From assembly GCA_025766275.1 (NCBI GenBank), contig JAFKAC010000125.1, forward strand, positions 83,472 to 147,471: 64,000 bases of DNA. Reading direction: 5' to 3'. How positions within the stretch are numbered: the stretch's first letter is position 1; each line of letters starts with the position of its first letter. Source of the stretch: Lactarius indigo. Taxonomy: Eukaryota; Basidiomycota; Agaricomycetes; Russulales; Russulaceae. Under the pieces are notes generated by a model. The model saw only the letters and a list, made by a program, of their open reading frames with translations. It did no database searches and was not told the origin of the DNA. A program made the position numbers and the translations under genes. This document shows positions 1 through 7,872 of this stretch, in pieces.

Positions 1-122
1 GCTGGAGATATCCTCTTCTTTCCACTTAGCGTAGTAAAGGTTGTTGGTAAGGGAAAAATAGGGGTCGAGGAAGTATACTGGGATGTGGGCTTTTTCTTCG
101 TTTGTGAGGGTTCGTTGCGTGT

Positions 123-824
123 TCATTCACCTCTTCTGGTGAGACGGGTGACAGTCCAACTGTCCAGGTTCCAGGGGTAGTAGACTTTGTATGCAGGGAG
201 GAGGATAGCTCTATCCGGTCGATGGGGTCTTTGTGAACGACGGATCCAATGGTATTCTTCCCAAATACCAAAATGGGTCAAGGTTGTCTTACTTCTCCAC
301 AAGAAGTCTTGGAAATACAAGGGGCTTGTCGAGACTTCGCTTATGCGCGTAAGCGGCTGGGAGAAGTACAGGGTTTCAAGATTGTGCCGGTTTTGGTACA
401 ACAGAGAACAGTGCCTTCTGAACACGTCGAGTTCTCGGGGGGTTCGGGTTGGTAGGCTCTTGGTTACTAGGATAGCCTCGGGGAGGTGACAATGGATTTC
501 TCGGGGTTGGGTCTCGAGATACTGAGCTTCGTCACTGCTCGTGGAATGCTGTCTTGTAGTCGGAGTTGCTTGGATACTGGGGTACACTGGTTCGCTTGGA
601 CCGGCTTGGTTAATACTTGGAAGGGGAATCTGGGTGTTGGTAGCTCGTCGAGCTCTGGGGGCTCTTCTTGGGGTAACAGGGGTACTAGGGGTAGAGGCTA
701 TGGGTCGATCGTCCACTTGGAAGCGACGATGAGTTCTTCTTTGGGTGGCGTGTGAGGATGCCAGGTTAATTGCCCAATGAATTGGATCCAGGGTTTGGCT
801 CGAGAATTTATCAAATTTTACACT
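123..824 (-). CDS. Unrecognised ORF C of the left three-ORF cluster
   Basis: I do not recognise this protein (about 197 residues). The N terminus is rich in Pro, Thr, Arg and Ser; the C-terminal half is aromatic and Arg-rich (many Tyr, Trp, His) and ends in TRLTRRGE before the stop. There is no internal Met. The open frame begins with GTG at 716, immediately after an AAG acceptor. If an intron at 716-823 (GTGTAA...CCAAG, 108 bp) is removed, the A at 824 joins TG at 715-714 to make ATG. It is the third ORF in the same orientation after those at 1890 and 3264. It may be a cellular gene or cargo of a repeat whose other end lies left of the window. The coding frame is moderately certain; the 5' exon is inference. 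Confidence 0.4.
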   Translation of the reverse strand, partial: SVKFDKFSSQTLDPIHWAINLASSHATQRRTHRRFQVDDRPIASTPSTPVTPRRAPRARRATNTQIPLPSINQAGPSEPVYPSIQATPTTRQHSTSSDEAQYLETQPREIHCHLPEAILVTKSLPTRTPRELDVFRRHCSLLYQNRHNLETLYFSQPLTRISEVSTSPLYFQDFLWRSKTTLTHFGIWEEYHWIRRSQRPHRPDRAILLPAYKVYYPWNLDSWTVTRLTRRGE

Positions 825-854
825 CGTAAAATTTATCTCGACAATCTATGCTAT

Positions 855-1890
855 CTAGTCCCTTTTTCTATAAGGTAGATAGTTAACTCCAGGGGACCAC
901 AATACTACGTTGGGGGGTGTCGGGGGGGTGTCGGGACGATAACCGCAGGTGCAAACTTCTTGAGAGCACCAACAGGGGCCGGAGGTCAAAGTTGGTCCCC
1001 AACCGTCGTTTGGACTAGGCGGCTGGTTAGTGTCTCCGTTGTGAAGGGAGATGTCGGAGTCTGAAGATTCGTCTTCAGTTTCAGGAGAACTAGGGGGAAG
1101 CCGATCTGTTATTCGGCGGAGCAAAGGCGGAGTCCGGAAAGTTTCTCTGGCGTTGAGAATTGACACTAGTTCAGGGTCGTCCGAGGTCGAAGGGGGATAG
1201 TGCCAGATGCTAGGGTTGACCAGGTTCCGGTCAGGGTTTGACAAGGTAGTTTCCCACACAGAGGTGGCGAAGGAGTAAGTGAATTCCGAACTATCGGAGA
1301 TGACTAGACGGGGGGCGGAGTCAGGGTGAATGATCACTCGGATTTCTTGGAAGGAAATTTGTATTTCCTGATATGTGAGGCGGAGTCGGTCGACAAAGTG
1401 AAGAGAGAAGCCGTCTTCGAGTTGCCGGACGTAGTGGTCACGACGAGGAGGAACGTGGACAAACCAAAGATAGTCGCTTTTGGTCCACACTAGGAGTTGA
1501 TCTGTTGGGTGGTTGGTGGCAGAAACAGAGTTCGAAAGATGCCAATAAAGGAGTTGCTCGTCAGCAGCCTTGACGACTTCAGAAAGATCGTCAATAAACT
1601 CGTGGTAAACCCTTTCGGGGATGACTTCTCCAAAGTCAAAGAGGTCGATGAGGGTTCGTAAGGCAGTAGGGGGTTCTGTCCAACAGTCAAGTCGGGGGTT
1701 ATCGATGAGGTCGTACGTGGAGGTGACGGGGTAATAGCGGTCAAGTTGCCGCTGTCTGTGGGACTCGAAGTTAACTCGGGCTCATGCGAGCCTTTGTTCT
1801 TCAGATAAGTTGAAAGTGAATGGAGTAGAAGGAGGCACTTAAATCACTCGATTTAAGTCCAAAACCCAAATAAGTAAACACTTACTTACT
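855..1890 (-). pseudogene. Unrecognised ORF B with one in-frame TGA
   Basis: This is a conserved-looking protein of about 326 codons that I cannot name. The first 30 residues contain the run FNLSEEQRLA, then an in-frame TGA at 1782-1784, then a long globular part rich in Trp, Tyr, Asp and Leu. The C terminus is acidic (SSDSD) followed by a Cys-rich run CWCSQEVCTCGY and Pro repeats. No ATG exists in the frame. Intron 1838-1889 (GTAAGTAAGT...TTTAAG, 52 bp) would join A1890 to TG1837-1836 and give MPPSTPF. The TGA could be a decayed CGA (a CpG transition) or could lie in an unrecognised intron. A TATA-like TATATA sits at 1931-1936 just upstream. Confidence 0.4.
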
Positions 1891-1925
1891 TTGCGTTGCA
1901 CTTAAAACACTCGTTTCAAGACAAG

Positions 1926-1940
1926 GCAAATATATAACCA
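1926..1940 (-). promoter_or_regulatory. TATA-like box for ORF B
   Basis: On the minus strand the sequence GGTTATATATTTG lies about 40 nt upstream of the inferred first exon end at 1890. It occupies the short gap between the stop of ORF A (1946) and ORF B, so ORF B probably has its own promoter. Confidence 0.35.
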
Positions 1941-1945
1941 CTTAT

Positions 1946-3264
1946 CTAAAGTGGTTGGTCGTCGGGGAAAGTGGTAATGAAACTAAAAGGGTCGGCAGGG
2001 ATACGGGGGGAAAGGCTATAGGCAAGAAGATGAGGGGCGGAACGAACCAAGTCCTCAAAGAAGTAGGCCTGGTGGTAAGCGTAAATTTGTCCGTTAAAAG
2101 AAAAGCGTAAATGTCCGTAAGTGGTAACAACCCTTCCGTCCAAAAAGTCCTGGATTTCTAGGGTTACTAGAGAGTCAATGTAACCCGCTCTGTGGACGTT
2201 AGTAAGAGGGGCAAAGACACGTCTCAGGCCCTCCCTGAAATCGTAGCGGATGGTCCCAAAGGGGGTGTCGGGGGAGGGGAGGTCGTATATGGCCTTGGAA
2301 CAGACGTATAGGGGAGGGAAGTCGGGGTGTTGAGCGGGGTCAACAACGCGTGGGAAGAGGGTGTAGACGTGAGGGGGCAGGAGACGAAAGGGGGTGACAG
2401 AAGGAAAGATTGGGGGAAAGGTGACGAGGGAAGTGGCGAGGGGAACTTTGGTGATCAGTTCCCGAAGTGTGGTGGAGGCGGGCCGCCAAGACTCTCCTTG
2501 GGGGGTGATGACGGCGATGTACTGGTGAGGGTGTTCTCCTTGGTGAAGGAGACAAGGGGGGGCTTGGTAGGCAGTAGCGCCAAGTGGGGGAAGGTTCTCC
2601 TGGTCGGGGTGAGGGGCCGGAGGGAAGACGGGGCCTTGTTCTGCTACTCGCTCGTAGTTAATCGGCGAGTCGGGGGTCGCAAGGCGGGAGGGGACCGGAA
2701 CAGGAGACGGAGAGCGACGAGGAGTCGGAGGAAGAACAGGAGGTGGCGAAGGAGAGCCACGAAGGGGAACAGGGGGGCGGGGGGTCGGGATTCGGAGGGA
2801 AGGCGCAGACTCAGCGCGGGGTTCAGGGGACAAGGGGACAATGTTCCCATTGAGGTCGATGATCTCGAGGACCTCTTCGTAGAACTGGGCGACACTGGGG
2901 GACAGGGAACGAGGGGAAGGACGAGGGGTGGCTTCTTCAGCCGGAGCGTAGGGGTAAACTAGTTCGGGGGTTGTGTCCCGAACGAGGGCAACAGGGGCGG
3001 GGGGCTCGTTACCACCGAAGGTGGCGGGGGTGTAGGGGGCGGTGAAGCGGAGGCTGTCGAGACGGACAGCAGAGGAGGAGGGGACAGGGGAAGTTCGGGA
3101 AAAGTCGAGGGGGCTACCTTGGTTATCGAACTCCGACTGGTAGCTGGCAGAGTCTCCGTCCCACTGACCGTACTGCGAGAAGTCGTACTCGTAGTTGTAG
3201 TCAGTCACTGGAACAGCCCGGGGTCAGTCTATTGGAGAGACTGTCCAAGTGTGGTGAACTCACT
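1946..3264 (-). CDS. Unrecognised proline-rich ORF A of the left cluster
   Basis: A 420-residue open frame that I do not recognise. Residues 1-60 are acidic and aromatic (TDYNYEYDFSQYGQWDGD). Residues 75-230 are a low-complexity Pro/Ser/Arg region. Residues 240-420 look globular, with a block ending YAYHQAYFFEDLVRSAPHLL. There is no internal Met. The frame opens with GTG at 3208, preceded by CCAG. A GTGAGT...TTCCAG intron at 3208-3263 (56 bp) would join A3264 to TG3207-3206 to make the start ATG. No ATG occurs between the TATA box near 3470 and the donor, so splicing would create the first ATG of the mRNA. Whether it is a cellular gene or repeat cargo cannot be decided here. Confidence 0.45.
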
Positions 3265-3433
3265 GTCACTCGACAGCGAGGGATGCGTTTGAAGACGACG
3301 GCGGGCGAGATGGAGACGGAGAGAACGTCGAGGGGGCGAAGAGGAGGCGTTCTTGGCTCAGAGGAGGTAGTGGCGCACACAAGGTGGGGCACTCGAAGGA
3401 GCTGAGAGGCAAGAGAGGGAAGATGTCACAAGT

Positions 3434-3477
3434 GGACAGTCTGAGGGACTGTCCGATAGATTGCGCTAGCTTATATA
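3434..3477 (-). promoter_or_regulatory. TATA box and hairpin upstream of ORF A
   Basis: The minus strand reads TATATAAG at 3477-3470. About 16 nt downstream is a perfect 8-bp inverted repeat, GGACAGTC-TGAGG-GACTGTCC (3434-3454). The same GGACAGT core recurs in the ORF A leader intron (near 3240) and near 150-165. It could be an operator-like or 5'UTR hairpin; function is unknown. Confidence 0.35.
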
Positions 3478-3930
3478 CTACAGGGGGTGGTCTGTGCGTA
3501 AGTTTAGGGCAGGCTTAGGGCCTGTCCACGGGTGCTGCGCAGTACTGCGCAAAGGAACATTCTAGAGACATCTAACAATAGAGTCCAATAAGAAGAGGTT
3601 TAAACATAGAACAGCTGCGCCGCAGTCGATGGCGCAATCTTGCGTGAGGATGGCGTGATTCCGCAGTCAATACGGGAATCCCCGAGGGGTGGTGACTTGG
3701 TTGATTATCTTCGTTGATTGATCAACAATCAACTGTTGATTGTGTACACAACACGTGGCTTGAGAGACGTGACTGATCACGTGACTGATCACGTGATTGT
3801 TTAAGAACAGAATTCAAACTCCGATTCGGAATTCCCCTTTAGGAAGGTGATTACATAAGACCGGACCGACGCGGACCGGTCCTAAGCGCCCTTGAGTCAC
3901 GACCGGGTTATAGGTTCGTGACACTATCCC
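3478..3930. other. Gene-free stretch with short inverted and tandem repeats
   Basis: No gene is seen. It contains an inverted repeat ACAATCAAC-T-GTTGATTGT (3725-3743), a 12-bp direct repeat ACGTGACTGATC in about 2.7 copies (3767-3798) carrying two CACGTG palindromes, and a GC-rich dyad near 3858-3881. The left breakpoint of the truncated copia-1 element lies at the right end of this stretch. Confidence 0.4.
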
Positions 3931-6900
3931 ATGTTCAAACACAAATGGGCCAAGCTTCAGGATGTGTATGGCGGTGCTTCGGGCAGCACCACCATCTTTA
4001 ATTTGTGGATTCAGATAACTCAAGCCCGCCTCGACGACTCTGCACCCATGGCCTCACAACTGGCCAAGCTCAATGAGCTTAGGGTTGCCCTTTCCAATGC
4101 ACAGATGGGTGTCTCTGACACTCAGTTCTGTCTCATTCTCCTACACGCACTGCCGCCCTCCTACGAGGTGTTGGCCTCTACTATCCTCACCAGTGGGGCC
4201 CCCTCCACACTCAAGCACGCTGAAATAATTGCGCGCATAGTGTCGGAAGAGGCTCGCCGCTCCGGGCCCTCTGGCTCCTCCCTCAACAAGGTGGCCCCTG
4301 TCAAGTCGACAGGCAAGAAGGGCAAAAAGGACCACTCTGGTCTGACTTGCCACTATTGCAACAAAAAGGGCCATATCAAGCCTGATTGCAGGAGGAAGAA
4401 GAAGGACGAGGCTGACGCAAAGGAGAAGGAGAAAGCAGGCAACAAGGCTGCCAATAGTCATATTCTTGTACCTACCACCGCCTCCATTAAGGAGGTCGAA
4501 GAGCCCGCCATAGACTGGGCCTCTGAATCAATTGGTGTTGCCTTGTATGCTGCCTCGCATGTGCGTTGGATGATGGATAGTGGTGCTACACACCACATCA
4601 CCCCACATCGGTCTGACTTCAAGGACTACACCCCAACCAAAGGCACTGTACGCCTGGGTGATAAGTCCACTATAGACCAAGTGGGTGTTGGGTCTGTCGT
4701 CTTTACTATGAGCCAGGGTATTTCTATCACCCTCAGCAATGTGCTACACCTACCACAGGTGAAGACGCGCTTCTTGTCGAAGCGCGCCCTAGCACAAAAG
4801 GGTGCTGAAATTGCCTTTGACAGTGGCTCATTTAAAATATCTGTCAACCAAAAGTGTGTGGCCAAAGGCTACCTTGAGGACAACCTATACTGGTTGGACG
4901 CAGCCAGCGTCGGCCTCAACGCCCACACAAAAACAAGTGCTGCCACACTTGACATCTGGCATCAACGCATGGGACACATCTCCTCTGCGGCGCTGAAGGC
5001 GCATGGTCCCTCTGCCACTACCGGCATGGACATAGATAGCTCCACCACGGCCCACACAGTCTGCCGTGGGTGCGAAATGGGCAAGTCGACTCGCCAACCC
5101 TTTTCTGCGTCCTCCAATAAAAGGACAACTCGTCAATTTGAGATTGTACACAGTGACCTCGCCGGTCCTATGCAGACTCAGTCCCTGCAAGGCTCGACCT
5201 ACACAGCCACCTTCATAGATGACCACACTAAGTTCACTGTGGTCCACTTCCTTAAGTCGAAGGATCAGTTTGCTAAGTCGCTGCAGATGTATTTGGCCTG
5301 GGGTGAAACCCAGTCTGGCCATAAATTGCACGCTCTGCACTCTGACCGCGGTGGCGAGTACATGTCGAGTGTCACGCAGGACATTCTTAAGCAGAAAGGG
5401 ATAGAGCATCACCTCACGATGCCGGGTTCACCACAGTCCAACGGGAAAGCCGAGCGGTTTAACCGCACCATTATGGATAAGGCAATGTCCATGCTTCACA
5501 CAGCTGGCATGTCTAAAGGCTTCTGGGAGCATGCAGTGTGCGCAGCTGTGCACATCTATAATCGCTCTCCAGTCCGTGGGCTTAAGTGGCACACTCCCTA
5601 TGAGCTCTGGCACTCTGGCAAAGTGCCCGATGTCTCACATCTTCGCGTCTTTGGATGCAAGGGGTACATGCACGTACCCGCTGATAAGCGTCGCAAATTG
5701 GATGCGAAGGCCATTGAGGTCACGCTTATCAGGTTTGAGCCCGAATCTAAGGGCTATAAGCTCTGGGACCGCTCAACCCGCTTCGTCTGAGTGTCCAGGG
5801 ATGTGACATTCGACGAGAGTAGCTTCCTGTCCCTTCAGGGTGTTGAGACACACCCCACACCTTCACCACCAGTCATGCCTAGCACAACAGTGACTGCCGT
5901 GCCTCACCCGCCGGCGTTACCACCAATGCGAGCCCCCTCCCCTGCACACTCCAGTAGTAGTGAGGAGGAGGATGTTGAAAAGCTCTTAGACCCCCCACAA
6001 GTCCAACCACGCCCCACCACTCCACCACCTGCTCTGCCAGCTCCGCCCACCACACCAAAGCGTGAGCATGCCACTCCCACTTCACCCCCACCACGTCCTA
6101 GTGCAACGCGCATTATGCGCCATGTCCCTCCTCCCTCACCAGAAATGCCTGGGGGTTTTGAGGATCGTGCACAGCGTAGTCAGCTGTTGCACGAAATGGA
6201 CAATGCACCAAGGCGCACTGCTCGTGTCCCTGTGCCTAATCCGCGTTACTTCAATGCGGACAATGCGGCATGGCGCGGCAGGCGTTTGGGGTATGCGGAG
6301 TTATTGGCTGCTGCCTTTATAGGCCGAGACCCTGCAACTTATGCAGAGGCCATGCGGTCTGCAGCTGCAGATGAGTGGACTAAGGCGTGTCAGTATGAAA
6401 TGGACGCCCTAGCTAAAAATGGGACTTGGGAGTTAGTGGATCTCCAGCCTAATCGTAAGGCAGTAAAATCCAAATGGGTCTTTAAGCTCAAAGCGGATGG
6501 CCGCTACAGAGCTCGCTTGGTGGCTAAGGGATTCATGCAGATCCCTGGCGTAGATTTTGATGAAACCTTCTCTCCCGTCGCACGATTTGAGTCGCTACGT
6601 TTACTTCTGGCGTTGGCCGCGCTGGAGGACTGGCACATCCATCAGATGGATGTCAAGTCTGCTTTTCTCAATGGCGTGCTTGACGAGGAGATATACATGG
6701 AGCAGCCACAAGGTTTCACTGTCACTGGCTCTGAGACGAAGGTGTGTCGCCTGGTTAAGGCGATCTATGGTCTCAAACAGGCCTCCCGCACATGAAACTT
6801 GCAATTCCATGGAGTGCTCACTGCACTCGGCTTTAAGCGGACGTTTGCTGATGCTGGCATATATGTGATGCCTCAACGGGAGGGGTATGATCCACTCTTC

Positions 6901-7872
6901 GTTATTGTCTACGTTGACGACATCACTATACTGGGTCCCTCGTTGAGTGGAATTAAGCGTCTTAAGTCAGACTTGTCTGAACGCTATGAGATGACAGATC
7001 TCGGGGAGATAGAGTCCTATCTTGGTATGCGCATTGTGCGCAACCGCTCCCTTAGACGCATTGAAATAGATCAGTCTGGCTACATCAAGGATGTCCTTGA
7101 ACGCTTTGGCATGTCTGATGCCACACCACACAACACACCCTTGCCCGCTGGTGCTGACGAGCACCTGGTTAAATATACGTCGCAGGCAACTGCCTCAGAT
7201 ATCTCTCACTACCAATCTCTTATTGGGAGTCTGCTTTACGTGCAGATTGGCACTAGGCCAGATATCTCCTTCGCTGTGTCACGTTTGGCGCAGTACGCAG
7301 CGAACCCTTCACCACAACATCTGCGACTTGCGCAGTATGTCCTGTCCTACTTAGTGGGAACTATGGATATGCGTATTGTCTATGATGGTGCCAATGGCGA
7401 TGGCCTTCACGGCTACACTGATTCCAGTCTGGCTGATCAGACTGACGACTGCCACTCCACCTCTGGTTATGTGTTCCTACTAGCTAACGGTGCAATAAGC
7501 TGGTCTTCGCGCAAGCAAAAGACTGTTGCCCAAAACACAACGGAAGCGGAATACATGGCCATGACCGACACGGCTAACCAGGCTGCATGGTATCAGAGCT
7601 TCCTCACGGAACTCGGGTACGAGGTCGACGACCCCATCCCACTTCATGGTGACAATAAGGGTGCCATTGACTTGGCCTTGAACCCTGTCACTGGGAGACG
7701 GTCTAAGCACATTGCCATACGGCATCATGTCATTAGGGAGTACATCGAAAAGGGGACCATCACCCTCATTAGAACTCCTACTGTGGATATGGTTGCGGAC
7801 GGCTTTACAAAGTCACTACCGCGTGTCCTGCTGCAGAAGCACAACGATGACATGGGACTTGTGTGTACTTAG
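3931..7872 (+). pseudogene. Ty1/copia gag-pol (copia-1), 5'-truncated, two TGA stops
   Basis: One continuous frame is broken only by TGA at 5788 and TGA at 6793. Order: UBN2-type gag with knuckle CHYCNKKGHIKPDC; aspartic protease MDSGATHH; pre-integrase WHQRMGH; integrase core with D (HSDLAGP), D (LHSDRGGEY) and E (NGKAERFNRT); reverse transcriptase with YVDD; RNase H with TEAEYMAM and HGDNKGAIDLA. The domain order integrase-RT identifies Ty1/copia. The gag start and 5' LTR are missing, so the element is truncated near 3930. The second TGA replaces the Trp expected in ASRTWN. Apart from the two stops the frame is intact, implying a fairly recent death. Confidence 0.93.

Follow-up and report, generated by a model that had tools for sequence, protein, structure and literature searches.

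How a cell could translate three adjacent open reading frames (ORFs) that contain no in-frame ATG is the question raised by one end of a 64,000-nucleotide stretch of the Lactarius indigo contig JAFKAC010000125.1, which at its full length we call the window. All three (A, B and C) are on the minus strand, with lengths of 425, 308 and 240 codons from stop to stop. A first-pass annotation had described them as free of methionine, and our count indeed gives 0 Met in each; it had proposed that splicing between an A and a TG creates every one of the three start codons, in either a gene family or one transposing cluster. We find that the ORFs are not host genes; they are accessory genes in the segment between the 5' long terminal repeat (LTR) and gag of a chromodomain Ty3/Gypsy LTR retrotransposon. 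They are all under purifying selection, and they occupy a transcribed leader of ~3.3 kb that is nearly free of AUG in all frames from the putative RNA start to the gag AUG. Splice-created AUGs for A and B are well supported by the conservation of the sites, by their recurrence in another family of this genome and by Lactarius gene models, while C apparently initiates at a CUG. The features on which the argument depends are these:

3250 to 3923, minus strand: 5' LTR, 674 bp, TGTCAC...CACCACA, with the target-site duplication GATAG; the 3' LTR is outside the window, in L009.
3471 to 3477, minus strand: TATATAA box, read from the sequence as the putative box of the LTR promoter.
3433 to 3442, minus strand: AGACTGTCCA, complement of the primer-binding site, where the RNA putatively starts and would prime itself as in Tf1; the depletion of ATG begins about here.
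3238 to 3247, minus strand: TGGACAGTCT, by sequence a primer-binding site (PBS), 2 nt past the LTR.
3208 to 3263, minus strand: intron 1, 56 nt, A/GTGAGT ... CTGAC ... CAG/TG (slashes mark splice points), which holds the PBS and whose removal would make the AUG of ORF A.
1946 to 3207, minus strand: coding exon of ORF A, opening with the TG of the predicted spliced AUG.
1838 to 1889, minus strand: intron 2, 52 nt, A/GTAAGT ... AAG/TG, whose removal would make the AUG of ORF B.
855 to 1837, minus strand: ORF B, broken in the window copy.
123 to 791, minus strand: ORF C, from a putative CUG start to a UGA that overlaps the gag AUG.
1 to 126, minus strand: start of gag, with its AUG at 126-124; gag and pol continue outside the window on the same contig (L009).

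The element has two LTRs with TG...CA ends, a target-site duplication, the PBS-like TGGACAGTCT, and AAAAAGGGGATAC, which precedes the 3' LTR in the manner of the polypurine tract of a Ty3/Gypsy chromovirus. In their first 660 bp, the only differences between the two LTRs are 2 gap openings (0 mismatches, 98.2%). The gag of L009 matches Pfam Retrotrans_gag (PF03732), and pol has, in the Ty3/Gypsy chromovirus order, Pfam matches to protease, RVT_1, RNase H, integrase and a C-terminal Chromo domain (PF00385, E 8.9e-14). In Tf1-like elements, reverse transcription is self-primed by an RNA 5' end that is complementary to the PBS; here AGACTGTCCA is the reverse complement of the PBS and stands 35 bp past the TATA box of the LTR, at a position where such a self-priming RNA would be expected to start. 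The idea of one transposing cluster is thus borne out in the sense that A, B and C belong to a single LTR retrotransposon. A gene family is not, as comparison with hhalign revealed no clear relation among the three proteins (best probability 3.5).

The retrotransposon is present in many copies. With window positions 100-1900 as a query, 40 out of 125 candidates went through scoring, and each of the 40 matched, at 89-100%. Our alignment has 40 rows (the window copy and 39 others), which form 35 groups at 99% identity and have a median pairwise identity of 92%. A relative of ORF B used as a query gave 119 matches, among them at least one more divergent family. At polymorphic sites of the alignment, the ratio of nonsynonymous to synonymous change (pN/pS) is 0.23 for A, 0.17 for B and 0.17 for C when each is read in its own frame, versus 1.1-2.0 in the other frames. 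Among public proteins there are 64 different relatives, 37 for A (among the 7,987 best candidates, to which scoring was limited), 23 for B and 5 for C; some belong to Lactarius species and the others to unnamed sources, most of them metagenomes.

The absence of methionine proved to be part of a wider pattern than the first-pass annotation described, because ATG is scarce in every frame along the leader. Counted across 18 near-complete copies, the stretch between the putative RNA start and gag holds 20 ATG versus 569 CAT in 59,541 nt, and 8 of these copies have no ATG at all. The window copy has 2, versus a Markov expectation of 19.6 and a lowest value of 9 in 400 simulations. For comparison, the U3 region has 77 ATG in 6,782 nt (in the 14 of the 18 copies that cover it), and the gag-pol of the window copy has 13.8 ATG per kb. 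ATG is the most depleted of the 64 trinucleotides in the three sequences that were ranked. When all 40 rows are considered, including decayed and partial copies, the leader has 1.03 ATG per kb; no ATG site is common to more than 7 of the rows, and 63 of 96 occurrences of these minority ATGs stand where most rows have ACG. Synonymous-codon shuffles of the L010 copy showed a deficit of out-of-frame ATG in A (0 versus 2.9 expected) and in B (1 versus 4.5; P ~0.02 each). In C, whose L010 frame has only 118 codons, the values of 0 versus 1.6 were not significant (P 0.066), and there was no deficit in the gag (13 versus 12.2) or pol (47 versus 36.5) of this copy. Among the relatives from sources other than NCBI, 28 of 33 have no Met after residue 1; the 31 NCBI relatives were left out of this count, since exon joining in gene models introduces extra Met.

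We then have to ask where the missing start codons of A and B might come from. The donor and acceptor pairs that had been proposed for them lie exactly where they were placed, with one intron running from the junction at 3264/3263 to 3208 and the other from 1890/1889 to 1838. The donor of intron 1 (D1) is inside the LTR, 14 bp ahead of its end. Among the rows with data, D1 (A/GTGAGT), the acceptor A1 (AG/TG) and the branch-like CTGAC of this intron are each present in 21 of 21, while for intron 2 the donor D2 (A/GTAAGT) is present in 38 of 38 and the acceptor A2 (AG/TG) in 38 of 39, the exception (L051) being a deletion of the region. Genome-wide, the D2 site of the main family has 63 exact unspliced occurrences. 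At both introns, the A at donor position -1 and the TG after the acceptor are in frame with the downstream ORF. Two copies (L005 and L032) carry one-base indels immediately 5' of the AG of intron 1, so the conserved frame begins at AG/TG. The frame of ORF B in the window copy is interrupted by a TGA at 1784-1782, and that of L010 is intact.

A second family, represented by L060 and read through the leader up to a point shortly beyond B, has the same arrangement. Its identity to L010 is 76% in A and 55% in B. It shares the LTR-end hairpin, the PBS, CTGAC and CAG/TG with the main family; its intron 2 donor lies in a changed context that still has A before the donor (AAATA/GTAAGT), AAG/TG precedes B, and the A and the TG are again in frame with A and B. 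Its leader has 0 ATG in the 2,754 nt after the putative RNA start, versus 6 in the 347 nt before it. Public proteins also carry the predicted joins. The joint SSDM/SD, which is the exact product of ...TCG AGT GAC A and TG, occurs in 14 of the 64 relatives, and the intron 2 join NATM/P in 5 of 64; the named relatives with these joins are automatic Lactarius gene models.

The third splice-created start, proposed for ORF C, does not hold, because coding is conserved upstream of its supposed acceptor. The coding region of C starts 25 codons upstream of that point. In-frame coding resembling LDPIHWAINLASSH precedes it in 40 of 40 rows, and frame-shifting indels lie before this stretch. The acceptor AG/TG itself is missing in 11 of the 40 rows (which have AG/TA or AG/CA), and the supposed donor A/GTGTAA is part of a conserved hairpin. 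The conserved coding of C opens with a CTG, flanked in all 40 rows by A at -3 and G at +4, and it is at this CUG, in a favourable context, that C appears to initiate. Among the five relatives of C that were aligned, P0060 and P0061 have L-E-P at the CTG point, P0062 has no aligned Leu there, and P0063 and P0064 do not extend to it. The stop of C and the start of gag overlap as ATGA (window 126-123) in 38 of 40 copies, and overlaps of this type resemble cases of coupled termination and reinitiation.

Given an all-frame depletion of AUG that ends at the gag AUG, and two introns that make AUGs, the simplest account is one in which the choice of protein falls to whichever AUG comes first on the RNA. 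We consider it probable that the element uses one LTR promoter, an AUG-free coding leader and two introns that act as start-codon switches to choose between A, B and Gag, with C reached by leaky scanning at its CUG. A single RNA would start in the 5' LTR. If unspliced, its ~3.3 kb would be essentially without AUG, so that ribosomes would scan past A, B and C and start at gag, while a fraction of them would start C at the CUG and terminate where the C stop overlaps the gag AUG. Removal of intron 1 would join ...GACA to TG and thereby make the AUG of A the first one; it would also take out the PBS, so the spliced RNA would be unable to prime in the Tf1-like way. If intron 1 were kept and intron 2 removed, the first AUG would be that of B. 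If neither were removed, Gag would be made, with some C. AUGs elsewhere in the leader would be selected against so that each switch works.

Several observations weigh against this mechanism. A scan of ~3.3 kb is long, and the hairpins described below should impede it. The gag AUG has U at -3, which by the Kozak rule is a weak context. Older copies are richer in ATG (up to 20, in L042). Two of the automatic gene models, P0005 and P0042, retain intron 1 as coding sequence (in P0005, by eye, including the PBS), and in P0042 and P0045 the donor of intron 2 is joined to different acceptors. Moreover, pairing with the PBS is possible for AGACTGAC of intron 1 and would be another reason for its conservation. 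Exact patterns found no DNA copy of a spliced junction in the genome, and a search for L060-type spliced junctions with at most 2 mismatches gave only three scattered 2-mismatch matches (control 1). These patterns found no DNA copies lacking intron 2 even though an RNA that keeps intron 1 and has lost intron 2 should be reverse-transcribable, its primer site being intact.

Structure prediction adds a further feature of the leader, namely a set of hairpins at or near the splice sites:

3259 to 3280, minus strand: GAGT-loop hairpin at the LTR end, with a 9-bp stem that holds D1.
1936 to 1956, minus strand: predicted hairpin with the stop codon of ORF A in its loop.
1901 to 1920, minus strand: predicted GAGT-loop hairpin upstream of D2.
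1837 to 1858, minus strand: predicted GAGT-loop hairpin across the 3' end of intron 2.
812 to 835, minus strand: GAGT-loop hairpin of 10 bp between B and C, containing the third 'donor' of the first-pass annotation.

The four GAGT hairpins share the loop C-GAGT-G on different stems. If only Watson-Crick stems of at least 5 bp are counted, the leader has three of them versus 0.017 expected in 300 simulations, a comparison in which the loop was chosen post hoc. In L060 three GAGT hairpins were found, of which two precede B and the third stands at the LTR end. Compared by eye, its intron 2 stems depart from those of the main family by paired changes; the fourth hairpin was not seen within 84 nt past B. 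The segment between A and B folds with a z score of -5.9 in the window and -2.6 in L060, and the LTR end with -3.0 and -2.0, respectively; folding of the segment with the B-C hairpin is ordinary (z -1.6). In the window, D1, D2 and A2 are all inside predicted stems. It is speculation that these hairpins might regulate splicing or packaging, or bind a protein. We give about even chances to a fuller proposal in which intron retention would be the selector of the start codon: each intron's removal from an AUG-free, multi-kilobase coding leader would install the first AUG of a different accessory protein, the fully unspliced and packageable RNA would give Gag, and the common GAGU-loop hairpins would mask the splice sites and set the balance, possibly by binding a protein of the element itself. 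A separate observation concerns window positions 3223-3247, where the PBS has two possible pairing partners, the branch-point-like AGACTG of intron 1 and the RNA 5' end; the choice between them might decide whether the RNA is spliced or primed.

Among the alternatives, the one that fares best dispenses with splicing, and we regard it as unlikely. A, B and C would all be translated from unspliced RNA by non-AUG initiation, at GUG for A and B and at CUG for C, and the structured segments would act like internal ribosome entry sites or cause pausing. Such a scheme would fit the GTG that, in frame, coincides exactly with the proposed acceptor of A and with that of B, the strong folding of the A-B segment relative to shuffles, the recurrence of the same loop ahead of ORFs, the apparent CUG start of C and the failure to find spliced DNA copies. 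However, it leaves the conserved A/GTGAGT and A/GTAAGT unexplained, and copies with CCCCC or CCCTC in place of CTCGC have lost the hairpin partner and keep the donor GTGAG. The GUG contexts are also poor, with C or U at -3, and the introns are used by Lactarius gene models.

Clearly less probable still is the arrangement originally proposed, in which B (and C) would have promoters of their own and short leader introns alone would create the AUG. Of the TATA-like boxes cited for it, the one before A is apparently that of the LTR promoter, and the one before B is a TATATAT box ~45 bp ahead of D2 in the main family. The latter is absent from L060, which makes a private B promoter unlikely; moreover, separate promoters would provide no reason for an AUG-free ORF A upstream, and C has no such intron. 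Finally, we consider it very improbable that the scarcity of ATG stems from base composition or a common repeat ancestry rather than from translation, for although the leader is C-rich and the expected number of ATG drops from ~32 (zero order) to ~19 (Markov), CAT is common on the same DNA, the depletion begins near the putative RNA start and ends at gag, it recurs in the second family and, in frame, in unnamed relatives, and most minority ATGs derive from ACG.

Searches for the functions of A, B and C gave no Pfam match and no sequence match in the PDB, and a fold search, for which B alone gave a usable model, returned no convincing match. B has a C-terminal C-W-C..C-x-C cluster, kept in most aligned relatives, which could bind zinc.

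Turning to the surroundings, the retrotransposon sits inside an element at window positions 3922-7872 that we take from its motifs to be Copia-like, and whose reading frame is split by the insertion. Past it are two inverted-repeat pairs (8027-8164/10436-10573 and 8221-8290/10311-10380) that are 86-87% complementary. Downstream of the retrotransposon, L009 1-1816 contains what by motifs are the frames of a second, broken Ty3/Gypsy-like pol. At ~6526-6540 of L010, gag ends in GAT TTT TAG and pol lies one base back, which looks like a -1 frameshift site with a T run at the stop.

The closest known strategy appears to be the leaky scanning of rice tungro bacilliform virus (RTBV) and the badnaviruses (Caulimoviridae), in which ORFs I and II are AUG-free and ribosomes scan through them to the main ORF, over ~900 nt in RTBV (PMC5902531). 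As in these viruses, the accessory ORFs of the Lactarius element lie ahead of the main structural polyprotein and are free of internal AUGs up to it, and in RTBV the first start is non-AUG (PMC5902531). In the viruses, however, there are two such ORFs, read after a shunt past a structured leader (PMC5902531), whereas here there are three over ~3.3 kb, in an LTR retrotransposon, and the AUGs of A and B are absent from the unspliced RNA. The same source also describes splicing of the RTBV genomic RNA that supplies the start of an accessory protein, P4 (PMC5902531); there an existing AUG is imported with a leader upstream ORF, while here the AUG would form across the junction, and twice. Given this precedent, the principle of AUG-free leaky scanning is already known, and the points of difference would be the splice-made AUGs and the length.

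Fungal chromoviruses (MarY1, Tf1, Tcn and other clades) resemble the Lactarius element in having gag followed by protease, reverse transcriptase, RNase H, integrase and a chromodomain, and Tf1 also has a self-primer-like PBS. In errantiviruses, for env, and in retroviruses, a donor near the LTR feeds spliced subgenomic RNA, as it would here; their accessory genes are 3' of pol, however, and those of the Lactarius element are 5' of gag. In a survey of fungal chromoviruses, the majority have one or two ORFs and an 'additional ORF' without assigned function is named only in a figure legend; AUG-free upstream ORFs were not seen in the parts of the survey that were consulted (PMC2864245). No prior report of this element was recognized in the literature, where matches were judged mainly on titles and the openings of abstracts.

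The analysis exposes three unnamed protein families of Lactarius and metagenomes, and gene finders will probably overlook where these proteins start. If the proposed mechanism is true, the element would offer a naturally occurring test of the distance, here ~3.3 kb, over which a eukaryotic ribosome can scan. One promoter and two tiny introns would then decide which protein a retroelement RNA makes, and would provide a simple way of separating message from genome.

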